A stretch of 64,000 nt of DNA, from NCBI GenBank assembly GCA_950295325.1, contig OX485803.1:37773554-37837553 (forward strand), written 5' to 3'. Origin of the DNA: Polytrichum commune. Its lineage: Eukaryota; Streptophyta; Polytrichopsida; Polytrichales; Polytrichaceae. Of the stretch, positions 1 through 47,958 are shown piece by piece. Under the pieces are notes generated by a model. That model searched no databases and was not told the origin of the DNA. It saw only the letters and a list, made by a program, of their open reading frames with translations. Numbering within the stretch: the first letter of the stretch is position 1; each line of letters opens with the position of its first letter. The translations under genes were made by a program, and so were the position numbers.

Positions 1-2499
1 ATGCCACTCATTCAACAAACGCAGACATGCTGGGGGCGGATCCAAGAACTTGTTATTGGGCATCCGCTTCTTGTTCAGCCAACTATCAGTAGCAACCTGG
101 TAAAGCTTCACCCACTTGGCCTTCGAGATACAGTGGTGCTTCTTGAATTTAGACCAAACGGATCGGTTGAGACACTCAGCACCCTCCGTGTCCTGTCCCC
201 AAATGCCAAAATCTTTTGGATCACGTGCTGACAATTCTTGCAGCAGTATGTTTTTCCACTTCCTAAAGATACACCACGACTTCAAGAGTGACACATTAGA
301 GTTCTTTGTTGACCTGAAAGTCACTCTGGGAACCTCTTCGCCTGGCCTCACTTCGAGTATTCGTTTTGCACACAAAAGATAGTCAGGCTTAGTCAAACCG
401 GCCAAGACCCTAAAAGTTTCTCGAGTCAATAGTTTGCAGACATAAGGCTTCTCCTCGAATGTGGTTGCCGATTTCTTCTTCTCATGACGCGCTCGTTGTC
501 TCTGTTGCGCTTCGAGGTATTCATCCAAATAGGTTGATCCTGGCTTGTCGGGATTCATGAGGGTCCCCTTTTCATGCGCAATGAAGATCTTCTTCCACAA
601 CCTAACAGTCTCATCGTCGGCCATGATGATTGCGAGCTCAGCATTAAGGTCCGCGTGGGTGATACCTCTCGCAATGGCAGTGAACGAAGCCTCCATGCTT
701 GTTGTGAAATTCTGCAATGTGGAAGTGTTAGAATACAAACATAAGGGAAATAGACAGGAGAAATGGAGTGGGAAAGAAATCAACTATGGCATCATGGTAG
801 CTAGCTATTTAGGTAGTCATGTCTTTTTAGGAATGTATCCCTCCCATGAAGTGCTCAAGGGAGGTTCCTCTCGGCCGAGGGGAACCTCCCTTGAGCACTT
901 CATGGGAGGGATCCCTTGAGAAATACATGGGAGGTTCTTCGCGGCCGCGAGGAACCTCCCATGATCACTGTAAGGGAGGCTCCCTTGAGAAATATATGGG
1001 AGGTTCCTCTCGGCCGAGAGGAACCTCCCTTGAGAACTACATGGGAGTGAGGGAGTGAGGAAGTGCATTGTATGAATATGCATACTTACTTTCCATGCCT
1101 CCATCATTTTGGGGTCGAGCGTTGTCTCAGCTTTGTTAACCCTTTGCTTCTGGGGCCTGCCTAGTTTCACCCACACTCTACGACAATACATAATTTGGGT
1201 TGTCCAAGTAGGGATGAACTTGTTAAATGAATTGGAGTTATTTAGGGTATAAGATAGGCGGACTATCATGCTTGGATCCTCGCTCCAGACAATTGTACAA
1301 GGCCACGTCTTCAATTTATCTTTCAATGTTTGTTCTGTATCTTTATGCCCTATAATTTCCCTTGATACAGCCACGCTGTGTTGACCGTTGATAATGAGAA
1401 AATTTCCATTCTTGATGTCGTTCCAAGTCATCATTTCTCTCCATCTTTCATCCTTATTAAGCTTCGGCATTAGGCAAAAATTGTGATGAGGCCATGCCAG
1501 TGGAGTCTGTATAAGGTAGTTCTTCATAAGTGCTACCCCGGCTTCATCCAGTGGGCGAGTAACCTGGTAAGATTTAACTTGCATCATTTTCTTGATGTGG
1601 ACATGGAAAACTTTCTCCACACCGAAAGGATAAAGGTGTCCAAATAATTGGACAAACTTTTTCCGGTCCGCTGCAGCTTCCTCCAAACTTGGTTCCTCTC
1701 CATGCGCGATAATTCTCCCCTTCTCTGCTACAGTGAGCACTAGGGGAGTTTCATCTGTGTCATCCGTCGCCTTCATCTTCTTAGCCTTGGTCTTCCTGGG
1801 TTCATCAGTTGTCATCTTCGGTGCCGGGGGTTTCCTTGGGCCCGTTGTCTCCTCGGGATTGTTGTCAAGAATTGGCGTTGGGTTGAGGGTCCTGGCCAAC
1901 GGACCAATGTCACCTGAAACATTCTTAGACCTCTTAGAAGTCTCTCGTGTTCCTCCAGCTTCCTCTCCGGGTCTCTGTTTCTTTTGTGTCTTCTTATTTC
2001 CTCCATCATCATTCCTAGAAGCGACAAGAGTCTCCGCTTGTTTCTTCTTTTGCTTCTTTAGCGCCTCCTTCTCGGACGCCTCTCTTGCATTGATATCACC
2101 TATTGCTTCAAGTATAAAATTTATGGCCTTCTTGGAAATGCCAGAACCCATCACTATCTCCATATCTTCTTTGTCCGCAGTAGGGAGCGTCGAGATTGAT
2201 TGCGTGAACGGCTCCATATGGAATCTGTGTCTCTTGCAATCGATGGACAAAATTCGTGTTTCAAGTCCTTCGACGACCGACACGTTTAGTTTGTCGCTAT
2301 CACCGATAGCAGCCGAGGTAATTGCATTTCCCGGGTTTGGAATCCAGCTTTTGTCCACCCGGTACGCGAATGTTAATTTTAGAGGCGATTCATTGTCTTT
2401 TCTATGTACTTGCAGCGACCAATGTCGCAAGTGGGTGTCCCTAATTCCCAGTGGACACCCTTCGGCCCCACTTGGATATCCCCAACAAGATCGGTCCAT
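1..2499 (-). CDS. Two-exon gene of unknown function, 3' end beyond window
   Basis: I do not recognise the protein. Exon 1 reads from about 2499 down to 1090 and ends ATGGAGGCATGGAAA before a consensus donor GTAAGT. Exon 2 begins at 711 after TTGCAG and stays open for 237 codons to the window edge in the same phase, giving an EAWK|NFTTSMEASF junction. Exon 1 has a Lys/Glu-rich, nuclear-localisation-like middle, then a folded-looking part containing FLIINGQHSVAVSREI, which resembles the DGQHR/ParB-type 'NGQH' motif; that likeness is by eye only. Exon 2 contains VLAGLTKPDYLLCAKRILEV and a Trp/Lys-rich stretch. The start is uncertain: a second frame (2582-2379) also looks protein-like and an acceptor-like GTGCAG lies near 2540, so a further 5' exon is likely. 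A transposon origin is possible given the surroundings. Confidence 0.6.
841..908. repeat. Palindrome, long-armed copy
   Basis: A 68-bp near-perfect dyad centred on TCGGCCGA. The inner core is the family half-site GGTTCCTCTCGG. The outer arms, CTCCCATGAAGTGCTCAAGG and its complement, are not part of the core seen elsewhere in the window. Confidence 0.9.
928..963. repeat. Palindrome, GCGGCCGC-centred variant
   Basis: A dyad with half-site GGGAGGTTCTTCGCGG. The centre is GCGGCCGC rather than TCGGCCGA. The central change is paired on both arms, so symmetry is kept. Confidence 0.85.
993..1031. repeat. Palindrome, canonical core
   Basis: A dyad with half-site GGGAGGTTCCTCTCGG and centre CGGCCG, the same core as the copies at 12.06-12.89 kb. 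Confidence 0.9.
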
Positions 2500-2638
2500 A
2501 AAACTTCTCTCTCCATGTCACCTGCACGAATCATTGAAATGGTTAGTGTGTGTGGACTCCATGAAAGAGTGTGAAGTCTCAAGAGTGTGGTGTGAAAGAG
2601 AACCTCAAGAGTGGTGTGATAGTGTTTCTACATTGCGA

Positions 2639-2681
2639 AGGGGAGGAGGATCCTCTCGCCCGCGAGGAACCACCTCCCCCG
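2639..2681. repeat. Palindrome variant (inverted relative to 2735-2785)
   Basis: A GGGGAGGAGGATCCTCTCG..CGAGGAACC segment. It is a near dyad and is also the reverse complement of the next copy, about 60 bp away. It lies just upstream of the minus-strand gene. Confidence 0.8.
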
Positions 2682-2719
2682 CTCACAGTGAGCCCTTGTG
2701 AGGTTATCAACCTCACAGA

Positions 2720-2798
2720 GCCAGGGGTCAGTGATGGGGGGAGGAGGTTCCTCGCGGGCGAGAGGATCCTCCTCCCCCCCTCATCACTGACCCCTGGC
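2720..2798. repeat. 79-bp palindrome with private outer arms
   Basis: The outer arms are GCCAGGGGTCAGTGATG and its reverse complement. The inner part is GGGGGAGGAGGTTCCTCGCGG with its partner. As at 841-908, the core is shared with the family while the outer arms are unique to this locus. Confidence 0.85.
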
Positions 2799-2865
2799 AT
2801 GAACATAAGTATAAGCATGAGCATAAACACAAGCATGAGCATAAACATAAGCATGAGCATAAACA
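2799..2865. repeat. Short tandem repeat (AAGCATGAGCATAAACAT-like)
   Basis: Units of roughly 12-18 bp of the type AGCATGAGCATAAACA are repeated imperfectly directly beside the 79-bp palindrome. Confidence 0.8.
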
Positions 2866-2989
2866 TAACACATTCAATCAGATAACACATTCAAACACTC
2901 AGAGCACACAAGCTCTTATACAGATTGAATACAACCCCTAGGTACTCAAACACAACCAAAAAGCACATTCAAACCTTGCCTACATTCAA

Positions 2990-3740
2990 CCAGATTGAAC
3001 ACAAACACACATTCAAACACATTCAAACAAACTAAAACCAGGTTCTATGAGTTTCAACACAAACACACATTCAACACAAACATACATTCAACACAAGCAG
3101 AATCAATGTAGGATTCACCACAAGCACATTCAAACACATTCAAACAAACTTAACCAGGTTCTATGAGTTTCAACACAAACACACACATTCAACACAAACA
3201 TACATTCAACACAAACATACATTCAACACAACCATACATTCAACACAAACATACATTCAACACAAAGATACATTCCACACAAACATACATTCAACACAAA
3301 GATACATTCCACACAAACATACATTCAACACAAACATACATTCAACACAAACATACATTCAACACAAGCAGAATCAATGTAGGATTCACCACAAGCACAT
3401 TCAAACACATTCAAACAAACTTAACCAGGTTCTAGGAGTTTCAACACAAACACACATTCAAACACATTCAAACAAACTAAACCAAGTTCTATGAGTTTCA
3501 ACACAAACACACACATTCAAACAAACTAAACCAGGTTCTATGGGTTTCAACACAAGCACACATTCAACACAAACACACACATTCAACACAAGCATAATCA
3601 ATGTAGGATTCACCACAAGCACATTCAAACACATTCAAACACATTCATACTGAAGATAAACCTAACACATTCAAACACATTGATACACATTCAACACAAC
3701 CACATTCATACTGAAGATAAACCTAACACATTGAGTTGAG
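2990..3740. repeat. 17-bp minisatellite and related higher-order repeat
   Basis: The basic unit is CATTCAACACAAACATA, in a near-perfect block at about 3180-3365. Longer units holding AAACCAGGTTCTATGAGTTT and GCAGAATCAATGTAGGATTC recur on both sides (3040, 3110, 3160, 3370, 3430, 3490, 3540, 3600). It is an AC-rich array with no coding potential; the open frame at 3163-3435 is only repeat translation. Confidence 0.9.
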
Positions 3741-3799
3741 AGTTACCACAAGTTGCTGGAAGGAGGGCTGAGGATTGTGGGAGACTTGGCTATGGAACT

Positions 3800-6650
3800 C
3801 AGCACCCCAACCTAGAGAGAAAAGGCGAACAATCTGGAGTAGAGAAAAGTCGAACTGGAGTGCGACCAGGAGTGCGACCAGGTGTAGAGAAAAGTCGAAC
3901 AATCTTGTTTAGGATGTACAATTCAATCTCAGAATCTGAGAGCGTGGAAGGTGTGAGTGGAACTTGGAAGGAAGAGAGGAGAGGAAGACACAAATGAGGA
4001 GTCGCCCGACATTCGAATGGATGCCACCCGGGCAGGTACGGCTACTGGCCGGAATCGACGGTTCATATGAAGCCGTCATCATGGATGGCCGGGATTAACT
4101 CACCTTCCCATGATGACAAGTGTACCGACTAGTAACAACTGCCTATGGGACATGTGTTGATTGAGTACCTTTTCCCCGGTTGCTCTTTCAACTAATTTTA
4201 TTTTGGCCGTTGGATGCGTGCGTAAACCCTATGGCTCCATCTGCGACATCTGATGTCAAGATGGGAATGAGATTACAACCTCTTTTTCGATGCGGTAATG
4301 AGAAACAATTGTCATAATTGAATCCATATCTTATATGTCAAATTACAAAGTTACGTCATGGATCATATACATATTGGAATTATTTTATAAGCAACTAATT
4401 AAATACTAACACACACACACACGCATTAAGTACTACATATGTGTGGATTTGTTAACATTTTCATGTAAGTTTTGACTTAATTATATGAAAAGATTGGATT
4501 GAAAACTCAAAAGATAACACTCACCATGAGAAAACGATTCATATTAGTATAAATCAACGGTATTGTCAATTTGATTATCAAAACTTGTCTCAAAAGGTGT
4601 GTTAACATGTGCACAAAATATATACAATTTTGATAGAAGAATTCAACTTGTTGTTGATCATCATGCACATTTGGAAGTTTGTTGAGAAGGGTTGATACCA
4701 ATAGCGGAAGTGATGTGGTGGTCATATATGGGTCCATACCAATATCGGAAGTGTTGTGGTTGTCATATATGAGTGTACAAAACACAATCACTATTCACTC
4801 CAATAGTGATCATGATTCACAAAATCTAATCTACGCACTCATGTATATGTCATATTATGCGACGCGACTCACACAACCAATGATTAATTCAATCTTTGTC
4901 CTCGTTGAACCCTAACAATAAGCACTAATAATAATCACTAATAACGTTTAAATTTTATTATATCAGTATAAAGATATAACACCGTGTAAATCCCAATAGT
5001 AAGTCACACAAATATCATATTTGGTCTAGTTGTTAAATGTTGCTGAAACCGAGATGTTTCTCATATGATCATCAAGTGTGTGGGGAGTTTCTTACATAGA
5101 TTTGATTAATAGGTATGAATACCATATGATAGTAGATCGTTCATTTCAAGCGAGGCATACCAAATATTCAATCACAAACATATACAAGTTAATGAGGCAT
5201 TGTATTAATTTGTATTGCTAACTAATGTTTTTTTTATGATGCATCATGCAACATCAAGTGTCTTAATATGCCACTTGTCTTTATTTTCTTATATCATTAT
5301 TGATTCCTTTAAAACTAGGACATAAAGTTCAATGATTGTAATTCTTAAACGTTCCCTATTGGCAAAATATTTAATACCTACATATGATATAGAGCATGGT
5401 AGAAGATACGTGTATTTTGTATTTAAAAGACACTCATACATCAACAATGCTCCTCAAAAATGATTTATTCATTTATTTTCTTTGTTGAGGTGCGATTACA
5501 TAGTGACATGAAAGAAGACACCCATTTTGGCCGTTGGATGCGTGCTTCATAGCAAACTTAGGATGGTTAGCATATTTTGAGCACATAATCCTCATCTTTG
5601 CTAACATGTGTCTTCGTGCCGCCAATTCCAGGTCTCGACGTTACACACTACTCAAATATATAGGTGTCCAAATTATTGTTGTGGTTGATTTAGGCACATC
5701 TACCTTATATTATCAAGCTGGATAATATTGTATGAATAGTCAAGTAACGGCCGAATGTCATGTGCGTCAAAGGTGGTGAGAGTCAGTGGCAACAAATATG
5801 GTTGTCCTAATAAGGATCAATTTCGTTTGGTAGTAAATACATTCTATCCTTCCATGCGATAAACATCAACTCGGGCCTAATTTGGTTAATTTTTTTCATT
5901 AGACACCTACCATAGAGGGCGTTCTATTTCATCAAGTAATGCCATAATGTACATAAACTAAAATTAATGTTACTTTACATAAAAAGAAGCACAAAATACA
6001 AATAATTAACCACATTAAGATTTGAGGAATACAATGAATGTGGCTTGCATTGATTTTCTATTGAAAAATAACTTCAAACAAATAGTAATGTAAATCATTA
6101 TCATAGTAGTGGTAATGTTTCTTGCACACACTTGTATGTCAATCACCTAATATACTAATTCATTTTGCTTCTAGTAATGGACCCCAAAAGTAGGGCGTGA
6201 ATTTTTACTACCCAAGATGTGTTATTACACAATATTTCCAAGTGTTTCTTGACAACATCAATAAAATGGGGTCTCATGGTCACAACTAGTATTATCTTAT
6301 AATACCCATTGTTGTTCATAAAAACAATTGAAGATGGGGAAAGATGTTATTTCATCACCCCTGGGCCAATAACTAACACATGACCCATTTCCATGTATTA
6401 AACATGTACTCAATACTGAAATTGTGGTTAGCAACACTCAAGGTTGATTATGTTTTTAAGATGCACCCATGGCATTGTGGACCCATAACATTAGTGGAAT
6501 CCGAGCCAATGATTTGTTGGACCGACTGTCACAGTGAATTTAGAAAGTGGGTGCAAACCTTCCATGATGGTGGGAGTGGCCGGTCTGATTTTTGGGCATA
6601 ATCGGTCAACATCCCAATGTTTCCAAGTCCAGCCGGTTCCATAATGTGAT
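3800..6650. other. Gene-poor stretch
   Basis: AT-rich sequence with no convincing exon. The clearest structure is a tandem duplication of about 52 bp at 4692-4770, with the repeated phrase CCAATAKCGGAAGTG. A phrase containing ATTTTTGGGCATRATCGGTC near 6585-6640 recurs at 8785-8835. Confidence 0.5.
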
Positions 6651-6657
6651 TGTTTGG

Positions 6658-6681
6658 TTTTAGGGTTTAGGGTTTAGGGTT
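6658..6681 (+). repeat. Interstitial telomere-type tract (TTTAGGG)
   Basis: Three uninterrupted TTTAGGG units. A reverse-complement AACCCTAAACCC tract follows near 6757. The heptamer is the Arabidopsis-type plant telomere repeat and supports a green-plant source. Confidence 0.85.
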
Positions 6682-6689
6682 TGGCAAAT

Positions 6690-9100
6690 ACATGATTTTT
6701 AATTTTTAAAATAATAACCATAAAAACACCACGCAAATATATGACCCTATTACATTTAACCCTAAACCCTATTAGAATTAACATTATTTTACATTAATAT
6801 TTGGCATCGCACGATGTACTGTTATTCCATTGGGCAATTCAAATGTATTACTTATGAGTTCATAATCACTCATGTTGAAAAGGTTGTTTGGACGTTTAGG
6901 GCCTTCACTTATTGTGTGAATAGGTGTGAAGCTAAGAAAAACCCACCGCCCCCCCCCCCCCCATAGGTAGAAGGAGAGTGTGTAGAAAAGATTGGACTTA
7001 TATGTGCTCAAATATGGACATTAGGTAGGTTTAGTACTTAAGACATATGTAGAGACTTTGTAAGCGCTTTGGCTTTTCAATAATTAAAGGTTGACGAAGT
7101 AATCATTGTGAAAGATTGACATGCAAATAGATAAATAGCATCACCAACTTCTTATGCAAGCGAGCAAATGTAAATAGAGAGTCTCTTCACATGTACTAGG
7201 TGTTTACTGCCTTTTGGTGGGGAACTTTGTGACCGTGGCTTTATGAATGGTTTTGTATCTGAGGTAGGGATTGATTAGATGGGACATTTGGGGAGAGGTC
7301 TTGGTGAGAGGTTATTAAGTGTGTTAATGAGGAGTTGGGTTGGGTGTGACTTCAACTTAGTGTTCTTGGGGGGGGGGGGGCGTGTGGCTTTTTGTGAGAT
7401 GAAGATCGAGGGTTCGAAACCTTAATAGACGATAATGAGAAACATGATGACAAGAAAACACTATCCTTTACCATAAATTGGGCGTTCTTTGGGGGTAGTT
7501 GAGTTTGGGTGACCAACCTACAAGGGATGCTCTCTCCATCAGTCAATTGTAATGCAGCTTTCAAAGATGTTTAGTTTCTTTTGCTAGGGGTTTGTTAAAT
7601 GAAATCAACTCACTGCCAAGCTCTTGGGTGGGCAAATAGTGTGAATTGAGAGACAACCACGATTGCATGTATTGTTGTAAGAGTTTGTAAGACTTTATCC
7701 TATGAATCATCATCCAAACACCGATTCAAAACCAAAACAACCTTAATTAATCATGTGAATGTCTAAGTGAAATTAATTTGTGACACCAAGATGATATCGG
7801 AATCACCTTTGAAGTCTTCCTTGAATATTTCATTGGCTTTATGTCTTATTTAAAATCCTAACTACACACCCAAGTGTCATGTATTACAATGTAGCATGCA
7901 AGAGGAAGATAATTGTGAGCAAGTATGGAATGTAGAATATATATTAAAAATGTTGAAACATTGGTGTTCATGCACTAAGGTTGATGAGGCTATTGTGGAA
8001 ACCTCTAGCCTACTTAAAATTATCTAGGTGATGGATTCGAGCATTAGAAGCTTGAGCAGGATAACAATTGCGAATCATGACCAAGCAATCTAAAGTTGTT
8101 GAAATTGGAGTTGAGGAAGGTGTTCGTCTAGGCTCTGGAATCAAAGATTCTCTACTTTCCAATTTGGTTTTAAAGCAAGCAACTCTTACATTGTTCAATG
8201 TTGTGTAAGTGGATGGCGACACTAGCAAATTCTACATGGGTCATTTGTCAATGAAAACGAAGTTTAATGCCAACATTTGTTGTGTCATGTTTTTAAAGTG
8301 GTCATGAATAAGATGAAATGTTGCCAAATTAGGTTATCATTATAAAATACCCACTATGCAAGTGGTTGGCACCTCACAACCATATGCCCACACACTTTGG
8401 GAGAGACCTTAATCCCATCATCCCAAATATTGAGACTAATTTTATTTATAACATTCAATATTTCATGCATAAAAGGAAACCCTTAGGGAAGGAGGATTGC
8501 CCTTCCCAAAATGCTAAAGAGGACTCATTTTCGCCCCATCTCTCTCAAGTGTAGTGTGGCTAAAAAGGGTGTGTGAACTCCTAGGGGTGTGGTAGTTTTG
8601 AGTGTGTTGTGATGGCCTGGTTAGGTTGTGATTACACAAGTGGTGTCGTGGCATGGCTAGGTTGTGAGTGGCTCTCTCTCTTTTTCCTTTGAAATGTTTT
8701 GAAGATTGCTTATAGAGTGTATGCATTTAGGGTTTAGGAACATGATGTGTGAGGAAGATACGTAGCACGCTAATGTCCAAGGGATTTTTGGGCATGATCG
8801 GTCAAAATGCTAGTGTTTGCAAGTCCAACCGGTTATTTCTCAAACTCAACTCTACAAGATCGGTAGCTTCAAAACATCAACGCCACCAAATGGCCTTTGA
8901 CGTTATTTCACAAGATCGATAATTATGTTGAAGCGTTGAACTTCAAACATTTATTTCTCAAACTCAACATGTGCATTTGTAACTATTGGTCAGTTCTCCC
9001 GTATCATTTCAGCCGATCATGTGTGCGCTTCACTAAGGATAGATCTCTCTTCCCAATTGGATAGACGATGATATTTTGCAATTCTCCCATATTTATTGGT
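6690..9100. other. Gene-poor stretch with C/G homopolymers
   Basis: No supported gene. It holds a run of 14 C at 6949-6962 and 13 G at 7368-7380. Open frames here are short and low in complexity. Confidence 0.5.
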
Positions 9101-9105
9101 GCTCA

Positions 9106-9430
9106 TGATAGTAGAAAATTATGTCCAAAAACACCGTAGCCAAAATCGGCTGAGATTCTTTTGACTAGCCTTATCTGCAGTTGCTAAACAATTACATATA
9201 TATTGTTTTACAACAACAATTTCATGACGTTTAGAGCGTGTAATATACCGTTGGAAAGGTGTTTTCAAGACCTTTCCAACAATTTATTACACAAATACAA
9301 ATTACTTAAAATTTTGGTTGCTTAACCAATAAACAAATATGCAATGTTTAAGCAACTGTTGATCACGCTGGTCAAGATAACCGCAACCAATTTTGGTTGC
9401 GGTTGTTTTTGACATAATTTTCTACTATGA
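9106..9430. mobile_element. MITE, about 320 bp, with about 40-bp TIRs
   Basis: The left end reads ATAGTAGAAAATTATGTC followed by CAAAAACACCG. The right end, reverse-complemented, reads ATAGTAGAAAATTATGTC followed by AAAAACAACCG. The interior has no ORF. The superfamily and target duplication are not resolved. Confidence 0.8.
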
Positions 9431-9434
9431 TGTG

Positions 9435-11180
9435 TCTATTTGAAAGTAGTTTGGTGAAAAGATACGATGTTGTTTTGCTAGTTAGTTGTAGTAGCTATTG
9501 GGATGCTAGAGTCTTCTTGTTAAAGCAAAACCCCAAAGAAGGGCCCTAGAGTGCTCACTAATGTTTGAGCAGTGATTTCTCTCTATAAAATTAAAGTGGT
9601 AATAATATTAATATAATGGGTTGATAAATAGACTTGTGGAGCCACTTCACATGGGACGTCTACGTCAATTGTCTACGTCATGGTAGAATTGAAGTTCATG
9701 AAATTGGTTTCAAAGATCCAAAAAGCTGCTAGAGTTAATTTAAGGCCCCCTACCGTGAAATCGATAGAACACTTTGCTAACGTTTATTAAGTCCATGAAG
9801 TAGCTTGGAACCTTCATGAAATTGAGTTTGTACTTCTACGAAGTCATCTTACTAGGAGTATGGTTATTTATCATTCTTGCGTCATCTGAGTCATCTGCCT
9901 CCGACAAAATTGAGGCACAGTTAGGAGGCACTGGCATTTTTGTCCATAAGGTACATACTAGGTCTTCAGTGGCACATTTTCCTAATTGGACACCTAATAT
10001 ATTTGATTGGACCAGGTATGCAGATCAATGAGGATCACAAAGCAAACATCATGAAGACACATGTTTAAAATACAATGGATCGCGTCTTTCTTCCAATATT
10101 AATAACTAATCTACACTTGCTAGTGAACATAGTTCGGAGGATTTGTATATACATTAATTTCCACACAATCCAACAAACATAGTTTGCTAAAATAGGTCAT
10201 ACTTTAATAGTTCGACATTTTAATTAGAAACGGAGTATTTGCTTCAATATAATGGAAACTTCGACATTTTAATTGGAAAGTTCGACATTTCAATTAGAAA
10301 CTAACGTTGGGGATATGACCCCACGTAACTTCTTGATGATTACATATATAAGATGATACAATGGTTTTGCTTACATAACATATACCTAATCATCTTGTGC
10401 GATAGGTATTTATAATGTAGCCAGGGTAGCAAAGAAGAATCACAAGACCATCATGAAACTTGACTACACGTGACCATGCTAATTGGGCCCGCAAAGCCAG
10501 TATGTCATTAACTATAGCCCATAGAGGCTTCAAAGCCATGCAATGCGATGTGCACAAGTAGTTTGTTCTAACTTGGTGAAATTTTAATATATAACTAATA
10601 ATTGATTCCTATGCCGCCGTTCTTCATGACTTCCCACCCATCCGCATGCAAAGGGTAATTGTGCACCTTCCTGGAACAACCTTAATAATTCTCGGTGTAG
10701 CAATCTTAATAATTAAGCATGCAACACACACAAAGCACGGTAAATGGTTGTGGGCCCCATTAACTTCACTTAAGTGCCCAAATTTGTGGGTGCAAAGCCG
10801 TTCTTCTTTGATGCCCATCATCACCCCTTACCATTGGCTCTTTTTCACTATACACATTTGAAATGCATGAATATGGACTCAAGTCTATGGAGTAGGGTAT
10901 TGTGCTAATTCAAGTAGTGGTAACACTTATCGATTCCACATAGGTTAGAAACTCGACCCCCTTTCGATGGGTGGCAACATCATCAAAGAGGCGCTAGACT
11001 AACGTATGCATGTGTTATTCAATAATTTCTCTTAATAGGACCCCCATAGTTGGTCGGTCCCTGGTTCAACGAGGGTCAAAGAACAAATACCATAAAGACA
11101 TGTTTTAGGGGAAGTGGACTACATCTTCAAATTTGATCAAACTACTCCATGTTCAACAATGAACACATTTGAGAGGATCT
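9435..11180. other. Gene-poor stretch
   Basis: No gene supported. A short repeat, TTCGACATTTTAATTRGAAA, occurs three times between 10210 and 10305. The open frame at 9816-10031 starts with a signal-peptide-like stretch but stops after 71 codons, and I see no homologue or splice continuation. Confidence 0.4.
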
Positions 11181-11185
11181 ATGTA

Positions 11186-11579
11186 GTGCCACCCTCTATA
11201 AATGTTACACCTATAAGTGTTAACCCTCTCTAAATGTTAACTTTCTTCTACTGCCCACATATTGCACACTATAAATGTTAAACGAGTCAACTATTAACAA
11301 AATAGTACTGCCTTTGTAAATTTGACTCTGCAAATGTTAATGAATGAAATACAACCACAATATGGTTTTCACCAAAGAATCATTGATTCATACTTCACCC
11401 GTGATTTGTAAACTTTATTGAATAAAGTATTGATTGGGTTTGTATACATTCATAAACTTAACATTTGTATATTGGTCAAAAAAGCAATTTACTAATTTTC
11501 TAATTGTTAATTATTAGCACCTTTATAAATGTTAACTTTGATCCACTCCCGAGGGTTAACATCTATAGAGGGTAGACTG
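11186..11579. mobile_element. pogo/Lemi-like MITE with TA target duplication
   Basis: The termini are GTGCCACCCTCTATAAATGTTA on the left and, reverse-complemented, CAGTCTACCCTCTATAGATG on the right, each flanked by TA (11184-11185 and 11580-11581). Plant pogo-type (Tigger/Lemi) elements typically begin CAGTNNNACCTCTATAAAT and insert at TA, so the assignment rests on terminus likeness. The 394-bp interior is AT-rich and non-coding, with internal TATAAATGTTAA repeats. Confidence 0.75.
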
Positions 11580-12018
11580 TACACTCTAAATCTCGTTGTA
11601 TCATGCCGTTGGCAATCAAAGGAAGGTAATGGAGAATGTACATTATAAGTACTATCAACTAGGGAGCACATCAGCTCGCCAAACAATCATTCTCTACTAC
11701 CACACCTCAAACCATGATATCTCCTACAAGAGAGGACCCCGTACAATAGGGAGGGAAGCTTCAAATATTTTAGTACCCAAACTTAGTCTCCCACCAAACC
11801 AAATTGACACTACTATATAAGGTCCATACCTCCAACCGTTTGTGGCTCACTCTTCAAGCATTTCCATATCTCATTGTTGCCATTCCATGCGTTCAGAACC
11901 CACACATGTTGGTTTTAGCAGGTGCCGGCCCAAGTAGCTCATGCTTTGCCTGAGCCACTGCTCCCCGAAAAAATATGCCCTACGTGTAGTACGTACAATT
12001 CCAGGATGCAAGCGTGTA

Positions 12019-12038
12019 GTCCGTACAATTGTACGGAC
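12019..12038. repeat. Perfect 20-bp palindrome
   Basis: GTCCGTACAATTGTACGGAC is its own reverse complement. It sits 11 bp left of the foldback element at 12050. Confidence 0.9.
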
Positions 12039-12049
12039 CACTGCGATAG

Positions 12050-12893
12050 GGTGCCGAGGTTCCTCTCGGCCGAGAGGAACCTCCGTTGCCAAGGGCCAGC
12101 CTTGGATATCCAAGGTTCCTCTCGGCCGAGAGGAACCTCCAGGCCAGACTTGATATCCAAGGCTGGCCGAGGTTCCTCTCGGCCGAGAGGAACCTAGAGG
12201 CCAGATTGTATGTGACATGGGCATTTCATGTGGGGAACATGAAGGACAACTTAGACCCTATCTCCAATGGAAATATTTTTTATAATTTGAACCTCGATCT
12301 TGACTACATCAAATGTCTTCCAATGCAGTTGTACAGGAGTGAAGTTACACTCTCGGAACTGTGATTTCAAATTCCTATATGGGATCAGACAGGTCAACTA
12401 ATAGCTCATTCGGCTAATTTTGTGATGGAACATCTGAAGGAGAGTAACAAATAGATAACATGGAGGCATAGCAGATTGTGCTTGTATAGTTCACCTAATT
12501 GACTATCTTAATTTCCCAACCACGGGCTTGTGTAATTGCTATGTGGGCCTATATTGGGAGAAAGGGAATATAGACTTTGACCTGTCATACGTTTTGCATC
12601 TCAACTCCAATTCTGGAAACTGCAACTGACCTAGAACTTGAAGTGATTGTCTCGCCATATTGTATGGATAGAGGGTTTAGGGTTTTGTGGACAAGTATTA
12701 TGTTTAGGGCCAGCCTTGGATATCCAAGGCTCCTCTCGGCCGAGAGGAACCTAGAGGATATCTAGGTTCCAAGGATATCTAGGCTCCAAGGAGGTTCCTC
12801 TCGGCCGAGAGGAACCTAGAGGCCAGATTCAGGATATCCAAGGCTGGCCCTTGGCAACAGAGGTTCCTCTCGGCCGAGAGGAACCTCGGCACC
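12050..12893. mobile_element. Foldback element with palindromic arms
   Basis: An 844-bp element. The left end runs GGTGCCGAGG, palindrome core, CCGTTGCCAAGGGCCAGC, CTTGGATATCC. The right end is its reverse complement to 12893, with arms of about 68 bp. Six copies of the CGGCCG-centred palindrome lie inside: 12057-12082, 12113-12138, 12170-12195, 12727-12752, 12792-12817 and 12861-12886. They are separated by GGATATCCAAGGCTGGCC modules that are partly palindromic themselves. The middle (about 12210-12710) is unrelated AT-rich sequence containing TTTAGGG motifs. I see no transposase. Confidence 0.8.
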
Positions 12894-13019
12894 ATTTTAG
12901 GTGTCAGGGTCGTGTTAAATGGTGCCGACAAAAGATGTCTTGTTTAACATGACCTCAAAAGACACCTCAAAAGACACGTTTAACATGTCCTCAAAAGACA
13001 TCTAACCCTTCATGAAGTG

Positions 13020-13560
13020 AAGGCATGGTAAAATAAAGGCCATAATTATTCGAACATTACTGAAACGTGGCGGATGCAACTGGGTTATGTAATGGGTAAA
13101 ATAGACACGGGTGGAGTTAGGTCTGATGCGTGTCAGGAGCAACACCCATAAATGAGAATGAATTTTTTAAATTTGTAGTCGAATCTTGGCAATTCGTTAT
13201 GTTTAGTACTTCGAGTTAAGCATGGTTTAGGGTTTAGGCTATTTTAGGCTATTTATTACCTAAGGTTGTTGATACGAGTGGATGATCTATCATGTATTAA
13301 TTGGGTGGAGTTGGTTCTGATGGGTAGTAGGACCAACAAACACTCAGGGTAAAGCAGGTTCCACTCGGGCGAGTGGAACCTCAATTCGGAGCATTTAGGG
13401 TTTAGGGTTTAAGTTTCTAGGTAAGACACGGTTAATAAAAGGCTATATTTTTTGTCATATTAATATAGGTTTCGGATGCAAATGGGCTATCTATCAGGTT
13501 AGGTAGATATTGTGGTGTTAGTTCTCGTGCGTGAGGGGCAACATCTTTATTGATTAATGA
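13020..13560. repeat. Diverged tandem repeats upstream of the DUF7869-like gene
   Basis: Three loosely matching units (about 13020-13160, 13230-13340 and 13430-13560) share GGATGCAAATGGG-, GGGTGGAGTTRG- and GGRGCAACA-like phrases. They may be subterminal repeats or the 5' region of the transposon carrying the next gene. A TTTAGGG tract lies at 13393-13409. Confidence 0.55.
13356..13381. repeat. Palindrome, paired-change variant
   Basis: Half-site GGTTCCACTCG with partner CGAGTGGAACC. Compared with the family core, CTCTCG has become ACTCG on one arm and the other arm carries the matching change, so the dyad is intact. Confidence 0.9.
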
Positions 13561-13582
13561 AGTTACGTGTGTTATCAAGGTA

Positions 13583-16500
13583 ATGGAGCAAATGGAACTA
13601 GAGCATTTGAGTTCCGAGGAGGTGAGTTATTGTTGTAGTTTGCAATGTGATGTAAACTTAATGTGGTATTAGGGGTTTTACGTTAAGGGTAAACATATTA
13701 ACATGATTCTACAATGCAGGGATCATCACTCTCTGAAGCGGTATTCACGGAAGACGAGGCCGATGTTGGCATTGAGGACATTGATGTAGATTGCAGCGGG
13801 CTTAGAAGGGAGGAATGGCTGAACATTCCTGTGATGCTTGTAAACGCGAAAGGACAAAATGTGGCAAAAGGAATTTGCCGTAATGTCAATCCAATGGATT
13901 GTGTGGAAGACAAGTGTCTTGGAGAAGATAATGTGGGTGTGCTTATTATGGAGCCATTGGAGGGAATGATGGACATGGGATGGGTGTTCTCCTTACGAAT
14001 GTGGCCCCTTACTTGTGTTTATCACCAGAGGTATACTCTTGCACACCACCTCCTAGTGAGCACACGCAGGTTGCGTGTGCAAACCACATTGCTAGAAAGA
14101 CGGAAGAAAGATGGGAAGAGGGCATATGTCACATCACGCACGACCTCCCAGAGTAGACCGACAAAAACATCCCAGATTCTCAATAATAATAGCATCCAAC
14201 AACTATTAGCCAGTGAGTGTTGTGATAGGGAGTGCACTAGATATTTTCCCAGGGAAGAGACACTTGCGCTACGAACTGAGTTTTACACTTGTTCTCCACG
14301 GATGAGACATGCTAAACAACTCGAGGTCCATGGCCAATTACATGTACTACCTGGATGCTCAACGAAGGTCGTTACCTTGTGTGGTCGCAATGTGTGTGAA
14401 AAAGCATGGAGACACATATTTGCCGTCTCCAAAACGACGTTCTATAGGAACCGTTCAGAATTCAAGAGCGGTATGCGTCCACGCGATCATGGGAACCTAA
14501 ACATGAAACGGAATCGAATATCCACCCAACAAGCTACTGCAACACTTTCGACTTTATTGGAAGACAAAGCAGATATGATGCCTCACAAGGCTCGCACATT
14601 GCCAAATGACACACGTGTTGTTGAAATGGTATTGCCTCGCGGAACAAAATGGAAAAAGTTTCTGGTTACAATCAATGAGGTAAGCATTCGATATGACCCA
14701 ATTATCCGCTTTGTATGTGTCGATCAACCACGAGGTGTGTTTGTGGGTATTTAATAGACACGAATGGGTAATCATTAACATATCATATACGATATGGATC
14801 GAGAAGCATGTGAAGTATTATTAATGTTAAGTTATTTCTGTATGTGCAGGTTAATGAGAAATGTGGTGTGCTCCCAATCTCTCTTTCAACTTTGAGCAAA
14901 ATTCGGAATACCTACTTTAAGCACTACATAAAGAAGAGGGTTGGTGACAATTTTGCTCGTTGTGGGAAGTATGATTCGTTTTCCGCGATTATACTTCAAC
15001 ATGTGAAAGGTTCAGCTGCACACACAGGGTTTTCGAAACAATTGGAGAAGCACCAAGCGCAGCAAGAATCAGCTCGCAATGCATACCGTTGCATGAGGGC
15101 TCTTTCAATTGAGCATCCCCGAAAGGTGTTGACGATTATTCACGACAAAATGGATCATGGTAAAACCGCATCTCCTTGCTTTGCCTCCAAGAACAAAGAT
15201 ACCGATATGTTTACAAAGCTACCACTTTCTGTAACAGGCATGATGGCACATGGACATGGAGATGAGAGATATGCCCACTATGCACTGGACATGTACCCTG
15301 GAGATTGCAACCATACTGTAGGGTCATTCGCGAGACTTCTACGTGATTTGGAAGAACCACCAATGTCATCATCCCGGAGTCTTTTTCATGGTGCTGGGCG
15401 GTCACCTCTTTATCGTGCTGTTCTTCATAGAAGCGAAATATGTTTGCAAGGGTTACGAGCCCCACCCACGGAGCCCATACCGGCAATTCCTCTTCCACCC
15501 ATTCTGCACGTTTAGCTTGATAATTGCTGGAAGGACAACAAGTGTAGGTTCGTAAAGGCATTCTGGTCTATGCTCACGGCGAAAGAAATATTCACGGAGG
15601 TACATGTGTCTTATCTATTGGTTGGCCACACCCATGACGACATCGATGCATCATTTGGAAGATGGAGTATGGACCTACGCGAACACGACTACCCCACTAT
15701 CCCCCTTCTCATGAAATCATACATGGATATGGAAAAGGTTCCTGTCATTCCACAGATGATAGAGGAACTTCCAGATTGGAGATCATACGTTAGGGAGCAT
15801 ATCCCAAGTGGTAAGGAGAAACTCATTGGGCACACAAAGGCTCAACAGTTCAAATTCTATGTCCGAGATGATGGTTGGCCTGTTATGCAATACAAAGTGC
15901 TTAGCACGCATGAGGAGTGGTTGCCCAAAGACGGTGTGAAGATGTGGAAATCCAATATAAAAGGGGAGCCCTGTCTTCCATCCGGGGACCCCTTTCCTGC
16001 ACCACCGCGCGGTATGGCAAAACTGGAGGAAGTGGTTGTGGGACTGCAAGGGTTCATTGACTATTGGCAATCAATATGTGACCATGACACGACAGGAGCA
16101 TATATGGGTTCACACATGCATATTTTGCAGTACTGGATAGGGGTGAAGGAGGCATTAGAGACACCTCTCAGAAACGTATACACTGCTGGGCATGCATTAT
16201 GGGAGGGATTCTAGCCACGGAGTAGGGTCGAAGCAGATGCACATCCATTCATGCAGAATGGAGAGCTTCGGGAAGAGCACCAACCGGACGACCATTATGT
16301 TGGTCCAGCAAACCTTCATCCTGCAGCTGTTTTCCGCATTGCGGATAATGTGCACGAGGGGCATATGCTAATATTGCGTCCCCAAGAACAAGATATAGGT
16401 AGACCCATTTGGGTTTGCCGTGCTTTGTTTGGACCCAACTTGGGGGTCACGGGAGAGCATCCACGTCAAATACTTGTAGAGTGGTTCACTCCCACTTCAA

Positions 16501-16832
16501 CCGCCAGAGACCTATCAAAGAAATGGAATGGCTGGGACTCAAATCCTAACTTCAAGTGGAAACGTGATTTGAAGTACTCCGTTCCCGATTGGTAGCCAAT
16601 CGATTGCATTTTGGCAGCTTGGCCTCTGCCAGAACATGAAGATGTGGAGCCCTTAAAGGTTACAATCCCAATAGAGCAAATTGGATTTGCCAAAGATAAT
16701 CTTCGACATTGTTCAACAGCTGAGCGTGGGAACAGGGTGGGTGGGGTGGACGTCGAGGAGCCTAGTGGGCAACAGGGAGGCCGTGGACATGGAACTGGTA
16801 GACGTAAGTCTGGGGGACGCGCATCCCGGTGA
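13583..16832 (+). pseudogene. DUF7869-like transposon protein, three exons, three premature TAG codons
   Basis: Exons at 13583-13621, 13720-14679 and 14850-16832 join in phase 0 through GTGAGT..GCAG and GTAAGC..GCAG introns of 98 and 170 bp, making one frame of about 993 residues. The middle has CCDRECTRYF and LCGRNVCEKAWRHIFAVSKT, typical of a transposon-linked protein family in which an RNase H-like region follows. That region carries LDNCWKDNK and LLVGHTHDDIDASFGRWS, the DUF7869-type signature (family call from memory of the motif). The C-terminus is Gly/Arg-rich. TAG interrupts the frame at 15513, 16212 and 16593, yet the frame continues with sensible sequence after each. There are no frameshifts and no TAA or TGA before 16830. 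Probably a recently inactivated transposase-like gene; its catalytic role is inferred. Confidence 0.75.
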
Positions 16833-17214
16833 TCAAAGACACCGGAATCCAAGGGCATACGGAATTAGAGGAGCAAGTGTGAAGATCCTAGTGTTTTGTG
16901 GTAGGTGATAGGGCGGTCCTTTTTGAACCGAACGAAGGATTTATTTGTTGATACTTGCAATATTGCTATATGTGCACATTGCAACCAATGACATACCTCC
17001 ATGTGTGGTGTACACGCATTAATGTAATGTATACAAACCACAATGTAGGGCTTTTGAACATTAATTTCCTCGCATTTTCGAGAATGTGTCATGCCCCAAG
17101 CTACATATGTGCTGTGTAATGTTGTACTTTGCCAACTAATAATGAATATTGTGAGTATTGTGTGTAAGCGGTGTACAATAGTCAACGTTATGTCCCAAAC
17201 ACGGGCATTTGTAC

Positions 17215-17365
17215 GAAGAAGTTCCCGATGAACGTTCCCAACTGAGTTCACACACACGTTCCCATGTTCCCAATCTAGTTCCCATAAACGTTCCCATGTT
17301 CCCACTCAAGTTCCCATGAACGTTCCCAGGGTCCAGATGGCGTTCACATACACGTTCCCACGTTG
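17215..17365. repeat. GTTCCCAT-type tandem repeat
   Basis: Units built from CGTTCCCATG and AGTTCCCATGAACGTTCCCA recur at least seven times, about 400 bp downstream of the DUF7869-like gene. They may be subterminal repeats of the same transposon; the matching 5' array is not identified. Confidence 0.75.
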
Positions 17366-17399
17366 AATTTTGGTCAAACTTCATGTGTTTTGCAATTTT

Positions 17400-18780
17400 G
17401 GGACTCCCAAAAGTCCCATAATGTTTAATATCATGTTATAGTAGCATTTGAAATGCACAGAGTTTACCTATGAACTTGAACTATAGCTATACTTCCTTAA
17501 TAAGTTGTTGAATTTTTGGAATATGTAAATAGAATGTTTACAAAGAAGTGTAACATCAAGTTTCAAAAGTTACCATTTCATCTAATCATACAAATGTGAA
17601 CATGGGTCAAGTAGCTAAATACTTTCAATTGGCATCAATTGCTGCAAATGTAGTCCCTTGCCTAATCAATTATGTTTATACATGTAGGTCTTTGGATGTA
17701 TGTTTCTAGACCCAAAACCAATCTAACCTTTGATACTCATAGAGACGATGTTATGGTTGCTACATCGTCAAACCAACCCTCTTAGAGTGAGTTTCCATGT
17801 AGGCCGCTTGCCCACTAGATTTTAGATAATAATGAATTGGAGGTGTTCTCATGTAGATAACCACAAGCCGCTAACCAACCACATTATGGTGGCCTCCTAG
17901 AATGTGAAGGGCCATGGACTATGTATATTCAAACTATGTATATTATTAGACATCTATGTGTGAATTTAGGGTTTCAAAATTTAGAGTTCATTCGCCCATT
18001 GTAGAGGTGATTAGAGTTCATTTACCGAATATGAACCATGTCTCTCATAATGAACTTGAATGCCAATTTTGAAATAATTTTGGCTCGGGGTGTTGTCGAC
18101 ACTCCTAAACGTGGCTAATCCTTGCAATAAGCAACATCTCAAACATGAAATATTGCTTCTAGTTTCAGTGACCTTCTATGGGGGAAAAGAACATTTTTGT
18201 CAAGAAAAGGATGAATGAAAAGCTCATATGAACTTGAACTGTAATGTTTATTTCATAATTTGTAAAATGACTAGATCTTAAATTAGTTTTACACAAATAG
18301 ATAGAAAATTACAAACAAGTCTAATACCAAAATTACAAAATTCACATTGCATCCACTTACATAAATGTGAGGCCCATGTGAGGGCTAAGTAGCTAAGAAC
18401 TTGAACTCAACATCTACTGCAAATATAATTTATCCCTCAACAATCAACTACATCAACAAAAGTCATCTTAGAATGCATTCCTTGACCAAAGTTAGTTTAA
18501 CCATTGCTTAACCATCGATATCCATAGAGACCACATTATGGGATTCCCACATCATCACCCCCCCTCAACACCGGTGGGAGACCCTATTTTTTTTTTTAAA
18601 AAAGAAAAAAAAAAAAAAGGATATTGCTATGTGGCAGTGTGATATGGTGAATTAGAGCTAGATGCCTTGCCCATTAAGTTGAGGGCCCACCAATCTTACC
18701 GAGGGTGGGGGTGTTTAGTAAAAGCATTATTCATTCCCATTGATTGATATAATAAAGGTATGATTACAATGCTTCCTATG
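17400..18780. other. Gene-poor stretch
   Basis: AT-rich with no supported gene. Diverged duplicated phrases are seen: ATAGAGACSAYRTTATGG near 17740 and 18530, and CATGAACTTGAACT-like phrases near 17470 and 18230. A T11/A-rich low-complexity tract lies at 18588-18620. Confidence 0.5.
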
Positions 18781-31854: not shown

Positions 31855-34550
31855 AAAACATCCAAACCTCTGGTCCTTTTTGCATGAAAGTGGGTCGTAT
31901 TTATTCCAACTAAAATGTCCCAAAAGGTGGTAAGCAAATTAAAATAATGTTATGATTACACTAAATGGTCTCGAGGAATTTACTTAGCCTTATGTGTGAT
32001 ATAGACATGAGTAATCCATGTATTTGTTTTTGTTTTTTTTGGGGGGGGGGATAAAATGTGAATATTTAGAAATATAAGTGACCCAATTTCATATAAATTG
32101 ATCTTCGGAATAATTTTTAGAACCCTACTAGTACTTATAATCTCTTAGCCATGTGTTCTAAGGGACCCTATATTAATTATAAGGTTTAGAAATTATTTCT
32201 CTACATTGTCCAACAATAATATAATCAAATATAAAGCATCATGATGGTGCAAAAATGATAGTCTTTGTGAAACACGTCACGACCTAATGCAGAGAAGAGT
32301 TACACATTTTGTATTCAATAAACTAATCTCATGACACTTGACATATGTTAAGTGTCATGAGATTAGTTTATCAACCGAAAAACATGCAGGCTTTGTTTGA
32401 AACTTCTCATGTGTTACAAATTGCATTGTTTTAGTAAAGTAACACGGTTGGTGACATCATGGTGTTTTCCTTTTCCCAAAAAGTCATGAAATTCACCTTC
32501 TAGCCTTCAATCAAGGCAAACCTTAATCCTTAATGTCCCATATGGACGTTTTTGTATCAATGAAATTATTTGGAAGGATAGATGGGATGCAAATGAAGTC
32601 ATTTTTGCTCAATAATTTGTTTTGAAATAGATAACATATGTGCCTACTTGTGACCACAAAGAACGCATCCAATATATCAAAAGGAAATTCATATTTTTAT
32701 TACAAATATGTTCAAAAAGTTTTTGCAAGTAGTGAATGTTTTTCACTAGATTAATGCATTGGAAACATGTAAATTTGAAGAGAAAAAATGTTTTTAATGT
32801 CCAAATGTCACTTTTCTAAAAATAAATGTTACAATTGAGATTCATTATGAGACATCATGCAATCTACACATGGCTTAAATCCCATATATCCCAAAATTGT
32901 TTCAAACTAATCCAAATATTCATAATTCATAAGCAATGCACATCATAGAAAATAATTTATAATTGAATCTTGACGCATGGACATTTATCATTAATATATA
33001 TCATATATCATATATCATATGATAAATTCAATCATTAATTTCTTGAATTAGTATAATTTGCATACAAACTAAAATTCAAAATTATGTACCATGCATATAT
33101 AGTTTGTTTGTTTATAATGTTTTGATAAATCATAGATTGTCATATGCTCATGACACCTAGGAAATCGTCAACCTAAAGATATGTAATTTTGAGTAACAAA
33201 ATTGAATCAACAACTACTTGTTAAAGGAAACTTCCTTTGTATATTGGGACAACTGGTATTAACAAGTCCAGGGTGCTCCAAGTGAACCTTTTCCTTAAGG
33301 ATGCAAAGGCTACCACCACAAACTATTTCAAGTTTACCAGGGAGCTGTGAGCTTTTTCAAGAAATTACAGAGAAACATCTTAAAAGATCTCATGAACACC
33401 AAATTACCTTACATCTCACCAAACAATGAGAGAAAAATTTAATGTTGAAAACAAAGACAGTAAGCACGGCCACTTTACAGTTGCTTGATTTATTGAGACA
33501 CTGGGAATTGGTCAAGCTCCCAATATCAAACCCACACACATACATAGGTACATAAATTCGGCGTGGAAAGTCAATGGAGTACTGAGAACTTTTGGATGAA
33601 AGCTTTGTCAATTCATAGACAAAACTTCAATAGGCCCACAAACACAAACTCCTCCAGTTTCAATGGATACCCTCATAACCCAAAGGTGCAGATTAACCTA
33701 TGTAATTGGTCAGATATTTACATTGGAAGTAATTGACCTTGTACCTTTCAATTCTACTTGTACAATTGGCATTTAAAGTTCCAATTGTATGTGACCCTAT
33801 TGTGGGCACTTCCAACTCCAAAGAAAAAATTTCGCAGTTCGATTGAATTGAGAATTGCCTCATCCAGTTAGCAATTGCAAATCACACCACTTATTGATTC
33901 AAGCTTCAGAATCAGAGTTGAGATGCAAAACTTAATGGAGGTCAAAGTGAATAATACACACCCTTCCAATTGTGTTCACTATTGAACCTAGATGGTGTCC
34001 ATATTTAGAGCACACAGTCCAATCTTGCATACCACATGCCTTTTTGGCACTAAAATAATTGAAAAGAGTGACCTTCACTCATTGCATCCTGTTGCAGAAT
34101 TTCCAGAATACCCCAAAACGGAGATGATTGATCCCAATGTCAGTATGATATTGTCTTTTTTAAATGCCATTCAGGTATCTGTGATGAGGATTTCACATTT
34201 TCTGATACCAGTAGGGTGTGGGTATTTGACGGCATCTTTATTTTCAATACCATTTGGGTCTATATACCATATGAGAATCTTGACCCCTAGGCAAAATCGC
34301 CCTAGTACCAATATGATTTAGAATGGTATTTACCCAAATGATAACTCAGGTATATGAAGATTCTCTTACCTTGATGTACCCACCAAATATCAATATTTGA
34401 CAAGTATAAAATTCTCATGCCCACAGGTAGATTTTCTAATACCATCATTGATATTGATTACATGTACCATGCATTCACTCATATAGCAGACCAACATTAA
34501 TTGATACATTAAAAATGGATTCCAATAGCCTAACCCGAGTGACAACAGCT
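31855..34550. other. Gene-poor stretch 3' of the ATPase
   Basis: AT-rich; holds the hairpin at 32318-32371, a TATATCATA repeat near 32990-33020 and a G10 run at 32041-32050. No exon supported. Confidence 0.5.
32318..32371. repeat. Perfect hairpin, 22-bp arms
   Basis: Arm ATAAACTAATCTCATGACAC continues with TT; the exact complement follows a 10-base loop. A compact stem-loop in otherwise unstructured AT-rich DNA. Confidence 0.9.
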
Positions 34551-46476: not shown

Positions 46477-47958
46477 GGCTGCGCCTCACTGCCCGCCTGC
46501 CCGCCCCCCTGCTCTGCCCGCCCTAATATTATATGTAGTGTACCATGCAGCCAAGGTTAGTGATTACCAAGTGATTTTTCATCGAAACTTCAATCATCCA
46601 TGACAATTTTTCATCACATGTTGTTGACAAGAGAAGGCACAATTTCGGCCGATGGATGAACTCATCCATCATTCATGACAATATTTGTTCACTTATTCAT
46701 AAGAAATTGTCATCCGAAAAGTTATCAAAGTGACATAAAATTCCATATGGCACTAAATATTATATTTAATGTAGTGTTTGAAAGTTTGAAAGTGAAGAGC
46801 AAAATTGCGATAGAAATGAGCATAAAGTCAATTGGAAATTATATGCAAGCCTAGCATGAATAACTCCAATCTCCACTTTTCTTGTGGCTAGGGATTTGTG
46901 GTGTCTACATAAACTCATGTATTGGTCCAATAGAAAGGTTCATAGAAAGATACAAGATACAAAGATACATAACCAATAAATGAAACTCATGTATACATGG
47001 ACTCATGATACAAGGTTATGGATGAAACTTATGTATAGATACATGTATTGGTCCAATAGATAGGTTCATAAAAAGATACAAAGGATTGGGGATACTTAAA
47101 CTAAGAAATTTAATTAGAAAATGAGCTTTGAGGCCTACAAGAAAAGGCTTGGGATGTGTGGCGTCTTTGTAAAAATTCATCCATTGTGGATGAAGGGGCT
47201 CTAGTAAAAACAAGCCCCCTACAATGTCAAGGGTGGGTTCATTCTACTTGAAATCTAATGGACTAATTCGAGGTCCATGATGTTAGTTTCAAAGTCTAAT
47301 TATCTTAAATTTGTTATTTTCATACTATGAAATAGCTCATTGCATTTTCACCTTGCCAATGTTTGAGTTTATGTAGACACCACAAATCCATAACCTTTCA
47401 TCCATAACCTTATATCATGAGTCCATGTATACATGAGTTTCATTTATTGATTATGTATCTTTGTATCTTGTATCTTTCTATGAACCTTTCTATTGGACCA
47501 ATACATGAGTTTATGTAGACACCACAAATCCCTAGCCACAAGAAAAGTGGAGATTGGAGTTATTCATGCTAGGCTTGCATATAATTTCCAATTGACTTTC
47601 TACTCATTTCTATCACAATTTTGCTCTTCACTGTTAGACCGGAGAATACTACACTAAATATAATATTTAGTGCCATATGGAATTTTGTGTCACTTTCATA
47701 ACTTTTCGGATGACATTTCTTATGAATAAATGAACAAATATTGTCATGGATGATGGAAGAGTTCATCCATTGGCCGAAACCGTGCCTTCTCTTGTCAGCA
47801 ATCTGTGATGAAAAATTGTCATGGATGATTGAAGTTTCGATGAAAAATCACTTGGTAATCACTAACCTTGGCTGCATGGTACACTAAATATAATATTAGG
47901 GCGGGCAGCGCCGTGGGCCGGGCAGGCGGGCGAGGGCGGGCGGGCAGTGAGGCGATGC
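46477..47958. repeat. Long inverted repeat (foldback), arms about 550 bp
   Basis: The left arm (about 46477-47027) and right arm (about 47396-47958) are near-identical reverse complements around a spacer of about 370 bp. Outer ends are GC-rich (GGGCGGGCAG.., ..GGGCGGGCAGTGAGGCG). Inner parts share CCTTGGCTGCATGGTACACT, AATCACTTGGTAATCACTAA and GGACTCATGATA. The spacer holds a further partial copy of TGTATTGGTCCAATAGA. A transcript through it would form a long near-perfect hairpin. A diverged single copy of the arm lies at 25690-25885. Confidence 0.9.

Follow-up and report, generated by a model that had tools for sequence, protein, structure and literature searches.

Palindrome arrays within a large DNA transposon

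We analyzed a stretch of 64,000 nucleotides from contig OX485803.1 of Polytrichum commune (assembly GCA_950295325.1, positions 37,773,554 to 37,837,553), which is called the window below. Its first part is occupied by a copy of a large DNA transposon that carries arrays of palindromes around a shared core. The whole copy is 31,095 bp long (G000:C1:37759896-37790990) with its left end lying outside the window, and the terminal inverted repeat AAC(3 nt)ATATTAAACATTATGGGAC is present at both of its ends. Four of five extended copies are complete; their ends match, and their 4-bp target duplications read ATAG, CATT, TACT and TTGT. Of the fifth, E2, only one end lies within the stretch read. Terminal inverted repeats combined with a target duplication of fixed length, the hallmark of this class of DNA transposons, were thus found in all four complete copies. 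A sister family of 22-23 kb has a DUF7869 gene (transposase-like) and a gene with a GQHS motif in common with the 31.1-kb element.

A previous inspection of the letters alone, here called the sequence-only reading, had described palindromes centred on CGGCCG at 841-908 and 2720-2798. Both dyads are real. The first lies in the middle of a 76-bp dyad (837-912) with 37 of its 38 pairs symmetric, and the second has exact 17-nt outer arms GCCAGGGGTCAGTGATG with a slip in a G-run; the centre of the second site, however, is GCGGGC. Folded as single-stranded DNA and compared with shuffled sequences the two sites reach z values of -14.6 (837-912) and -9.5 (2720-2798), with 0 of 200 shuffles being as good. 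The core CCTCTCGGCCGAGAGG, allowing up to three mismatches, occurs 12 times in the window as against 0.05 occurrences expected from shuffles.

The palindromes are grouped in the arrays listed in Table 1. Linkers belonging to the same array are related, those of 837-1050, of 2640-2798 and of the pair of groups at 12050-12893 differing from one another. A scan of five copies for dyads scoring at least 13 returned 42 (9, 6, 10, 7 and 10 per copy), all with the core or a close variant, where the core was assigned by reading the dyad halves, shorter-armed dyads fall below the limit and the scan of the window copy began about 860 bp inside the left end. None of them falls in a stretch with a protein-level alignment to relatives, though open frames cross some of them (817-2514).

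Table 1. Positions of the transposon copy, its genes and its palindromes in the window
Feature	Coordinates	Strand	Basis
DNA transposon copy, right-hand part	1-17437	+	terminal inverted repeats, target duplication, homology to 22-23 kb relatives
GQHS-motif gene, intron holding array P2	712-1089	-	donor GTAAGTATG, acceptor TTGCAG
GQHS-motif gene, exon; open frame continues through the P2 intron	817-2514	-	26 relatives
Array P2, three palindromes	837-1050		core and dyad scans
P2 first palindrome, 38-nt arms (first site of the sequence-only reading)	837-912		homologues in 9 further copies
P2 second palindrome, variant core	926-963		dyad scan
P2 third palindrome, exact core	998-1029		dyad scan
Array P3, two palindromes	2640-2798		core and dyad scans
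P3 first palindrome	2640-2679		dyad scan
P3 linker, quasi-palindromic centre GAGGTT-ATC-AACCTC; inverted-copy change here in two other copies	2680-2731		
P3 second palindrome, 17-nt outer arms (second site of the sequence-only reading)	2720-2798		array and left flank in 10 further copies
Array P4, left group, three palindromes	12050-12195		core scan
Array P4, right group, three palindromes, inverted relative to left group	12724-12893		
Single palindrome, core altered on both sides (CCACTCGGGCGAGTGG)	13356-13381		same in two further copies
DUF7869 gene, open frames, interrupted in the window copy	13702-16595	+	two pieces match PF25273
Terminal inverted repeat, right end of the element	17413-17437	-	end comparison
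Target site duplication ATAG, right copy	17438-17441		4 bp

Recurrence of cores and arms among element copies

The exact core has 162 places, and all 50 of them that are listed by position fall in copies of two related large transposons. Dispersal of the core outside larger elements, as expected of an independent palindromic miniature inverted-repeat transposable element (MITE), was not seen among these 50. The exact core had no match in genome_contigs, and neither the exact nor the degenerate core had one in viral_contigs.

The arms recur together with the cores. Those of 837-912 were aligned in 10 copies including the window (11 stretches had been prepared, and the one at C1:8.95 Mb, which is without a P2 array, was dropped), and the P3 array with its left flank was found in 11 copies. 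As 10-11 copies have the same arms at one and the same place, the arms are specific to a location within the element and not to an insertion site. The sequence-only reading had taken the arms to be private to each site; this does not hold, as related linkers are present elsewhere in the same array and the arms turn out to be standard parts of long repeat families, the very outcome that the reading had named as refuting it.

In the sister family the same intron of the GQHS-motif gene contains an array with the same core and different arms. The ends of the P2 intron were deduced from the sequence, and the flanking exons align to those of the sister family at 77-79% identity. The number of units is variable: four copies of the sister family have 2, 3, 4 and 5 cores in this array with a period of 80, each array being headed by a long symmetric palindrome. 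Cores have also been lost. One of the three P1 palindromes read (copy W2) retains the arms without the core, and a half-site is all that is left of a core in three of the 10 right P4 groups read (W2, C4_29 and C2_60). In the P4 arrays, compared in 8 left-group and 10 right-group copies, core-bounded modules have been exchanged and lost. This gain and loss of units fits slippage or exchange between cores.

Symmetric changes in the arms

When the first P2 palindrome is compared between the 10 copies, four cells are changed symmetrically (8 of 35 arm substitutions); simulation gave a mean of 0.28, and 2 of 20,000 runs had as many. In the palindrome of the sister family the five copies have six symmetric cells (12 of 23 substitutions) against a simulated mean of 0.17, a number reached in 0 of 20,000 runs. 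Column shuffles attained what was observed in 0 to 9 of 500 cases for most measures, and in a separate shuffle of the five-copy set the number of paired cells was reached in 7 of 5,000. One pair column of the 10-copy set is present in three states, G-C, T-A and C-G. Furthermore, left arms of single-core copies are altered towards their own right arm, in C2_62 with the exception of the two outermost differences and in W3 partly.

Inverted copying at the P3 linker

The linker of array P3 differs between copies. In 9 of the 11 copies its loop is ATC and the ungapped symmetric arms are 4-10 nt long, whereas the remaining two, at C6:39.03 Mb and C3:27.39 Mb, have GAT as their loop and ungapped arms of 66 nt. 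The right half of the two GAT copies agrees with the inverted left half at 57 of 57 and 54 of 57 positions, as compared with 79-86% in seven of the other copies, two further ones carrying an extra unit and therefore not being comparable. In copy W3, where the P3 stretch read starts inside the array, the measurement may refer to the linker of a later unit. The left halves of the two GAT copies are 86-100% like those of the nine others. Given these matches, the left half most likely served as the template from which the right half, together with the loop, was rewritten. Three sequence features of a quasipalindrome change are present, namely an imperfect inverted repeat in the homologues, the presumed replacement of one arm by an inverted copy of the other and, at one place, the inversion of the spacer. 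The suggestion of the sequence-only reading that DNA is copied locally in inverted form around a hairpin is therefore supported by these two P3 copies and by the symmetric arm changes in the homologues.

Changes of this kind are known. In yeast genes template switching between the arms of inverted repeats can make an imperfect repeat perfect and invert its short spacer; in REG2 the arms grew from 5 to 16 bp and a 5-bp spacer was inverted (PMC8604942). The P3 linker shows the same combination of a perfected inverted repeat and an inverted short spacer, but differs in that arms of 4-10 nt are set against arms of 66 nt, the change runs across a palindromic core, and it is seen in non-coding transposon arrays in many paralogous copies of one genome. 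A second parallel (PMC8794818) are RNA hairpins created and maintained by template switching, in which multi-base symmetric changes keep the stems paired. We see such multi-base changes with stems staying paired here as well, although here the stems belong to transposon palindromes that share a core, and no RNA gene is known.

Origin of the mirrored arms

We consider it probable (roughly 0.7 for the explanation as a whole) that the palindromes are built-in modules of the transposon whose arms are mirrored by template switching at hairpins and whose array length varies through slippage or exchange. The arrays are integral non-coding modules of a giant DNA transposon, built around a conserved core (TTCCTCTCGGCCGAGAGGAA or a near variant) and placed in an intron and, as far as the open frames show, upstream of the DUF7869 gene and the GQHS gene. 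As the core is located in an intron and upstream of genes, a regulatory role is suggested, and judging from position it most likely serves as a binding site with dyad symmetry, which a protein of the element might recognize. The long arms would be a side effect of hairpins: while DNA is being synthesized, the polymerase may briefly copy the other arm, on its own or on the sister strand, so that one arm comes to mirror the other. Slippage or exchange between cores would change the length of the array. Taken together, mirroring of the arms and slippage or exchange between cores would explain why arms differ between families and nevertheless stay symmetric. Membership in the transposon, the arms common to several copies, their symmetric differences, the inverted loop and the varying number of units are observations; the preference for template switching over gene conversion by recombination, the direction in which the loop changed and the role of the core are deduced from them.

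Several points weigh against template switching as the source of the symmetry. The number of pairs changed on both sides is attained by 86 of 500 shuffles of the 10-copy set, and the non-symmetric arm substitutions amount to 27 of 35 in this set and to 11 of 23 in the five-copy set. The co-change statistics ignore the kinship among the copies, and the figures are therefore indications rather than probabilities. Symmetric differences would also be produced by selection for the hairpin or by gene conversion between arms or copies. At the P3 linker, taking ATC as the ancestral loop rests on nine against two copies and on the linkers of other units. The right halves of the two GAT copies are 56 of 57 alike, and these copies may share one event by descent or exchange; the loop inversion then counts as one observation at one place. 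No loop inversion was seen in the P4 arrays (8 left-group and 10 right-group copies read).

The alternative that fares best is recombinational gene conversion between inverted arms or between element copies in place of template switching during replication. Related arms do occur in several copies and units, and the core-bounded modules of P4 differ between copies as if exchanged. Yet in the five-copy set the differences between an arm and its own partner number 0-4 (mean 2.2), as against 2-9 (mean 4.25) when opposite arms of different copies are compared, and the P3 tract of about 66 nt with its inverted 3-nt spacer resembles the template-switch cases described in PMC8604942. Template switching at a hairpin accounts for arm correction and spacer inversion jointly. 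We regard gene conversion as rather unlikely to be the principal process.

Still less probable in our view is that selection keeps the arms paired, with the arrays acting as hairpins (in intron RNA, as a source of small RNA or as extruded DNA) and single changes being compensated stepwise. The position of the arrays outside the protein-aligning stretches, their very stable folds and the retention of an array in the same intron of both families would agree with such a function. Stepwise compensation, however, does not predict a change that spans a whole half together with an inverted loop, and G-U is found in only 2 of the 11 cells of the five-copy set that are not strict complements. A search of Rfam gave 0 matches in window positions 1-17500 at the gathering score, which counts only against described families. 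Both gene conversion and selection for pairing are possible contributors besides template switching.

That the core is a small mobile palindrome which inserted at many sites and then had its flank copied in inverted form, the model of the sequence-only reading, would explain why one element has the same core in several places between unrelated arms, but is highly improbable given that the 50 listed places (of 162) all lie in the two transposons, that the same intron position is occupied in families with exons of 77-79% identity, and that W2, the one core-less copy among the three P1 copies read, retains an unpaired TCCCTT, which fits a deletion and not an unoccupied site.

A bolder version of hairpin-templated copying is a self-renewing module, in which a protein of the element would bind or nick the core, stall synthesis and thereby drive repeated inverted copying, so that core and arms would change together while symmetry is kept. 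We regard this as doubtful. Two protein database relatives discussed below, P0007 and P0019, would under this assumption represent lineages in which the core has changed along with its binding protein.

What is new is the setting, in which the process is unusually clear to see, and not the mutational process, which was already known: arrays of transposon palindromes with a conserved core, with arms that change and yet stay symmetric and with a variable number of units. The origin and the near-perfect upkeep of long hairpins in RNA genes and transposons are usually argued from sparse cases. Here paralogous copies within a single genome form a natural series, in which the probable product of hairpin-templated inverted copying, about 66 nt long and with the loop inverted, can be set against the unchanged form.

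Genes of the element

The DUF7869 frame is open over 672 codons in the copy at C1:76.77 Mb but interrupted in the window copy, which is perhaps non-autonomous. A relative of the DUF7869 protein has a predicted fold weakly like transposase and integrase cores. Comparison of a DUF7869 piece with viral_contigs gave two pattern matches and no relative.

The GQHS-motif frame at 817-2514 matched no Pfam family. Among its 26 relatives in the protein database 18 read past the exon. Peptides of the same core are present in two of these 18 (P0001 and P0005), and peptides which by back-translation are compatible with another palindrome in a further two (P0007 and P0019); the remaining 14 have none of the sought motifs.

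Relation to known transposons

Elements of the CACTA superfamily are defined by CACTA-type termini and a 3-bp target duplication, and an assignment to this superfamily was rejected on account of the AAC... termini and 4-bp duplications. The plant DNA transposons CACTA/Spm and Tam3 have repeat arrays near their ends, and repeated, often palindromic motifs occur in their non-coding parts. By description our element resembles them in having repeated palindromic motifs in the non-coding DNA of a DNA transposon, but its arrays lie in an intron and upstream of genes, at a distance of kilobases from the termini, and its ends begin with AAC... and are flanked by a 4-bp duplication. With arrays that are internal and ends that differ, an interpretation as CACTA subterminal repeats was also discarded. 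Sola superfamily transposons have 4-bp target duplications; this likeness alone is too little for membership. We further considered the unit at 12050-12893 as a nested MITE and dismissed this, as it has inverted ends but no target duplication was seen, and cores also stand at the equivalent location of the sister family.

A search of the literature on moss DNA transposons with palindromes, on Sola and on Tam3 hairpins, judged by title and the beginning of the abstract, brought up no description of the element, and searches for the core sequence and for DUF7869 gave no match. The sequence-only reading had stated that no described element shows such behaviour; for the element this agrees with the literature so judged, whereas the mutational behaviour is in print, as PMC8604942 and PMC8794818 show. 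The element adds a large family of DNA transposons to those of moss-like plants, and the function of its internal palindrome arrays is open to experiment.

Other features of the window

Inside the element and adjoining array P3, positions 2947-3708 consist of dense tandem repeats with units of 17, 30, 49 and 57 bp of the TTCAACACAAACATACA type. In the rest of the window an ungapped scan for even-centred dyads detected one dyad scoring above 13, at about 32318-32371; it is a near-perfect palindrome of 54 bp with 27-nt arms (96%), in which the core is absent and which is unrelated to the arrays. The open frame at 59087-59569 has no Pfam match and is, judging from its motifs, presumably Tc1/mariner-like. 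Pieces of a P-type cation ATPase gene (Pfam Cation_ATPase_C and E1-E2_ATPase) are found on the minus strand at 34558-35178 and 38633-39616. Finally, an inverted pair of 546-bp repeats (46491-47036 and 47386-47931), 94% identical and about 350 bp apart, is also present.
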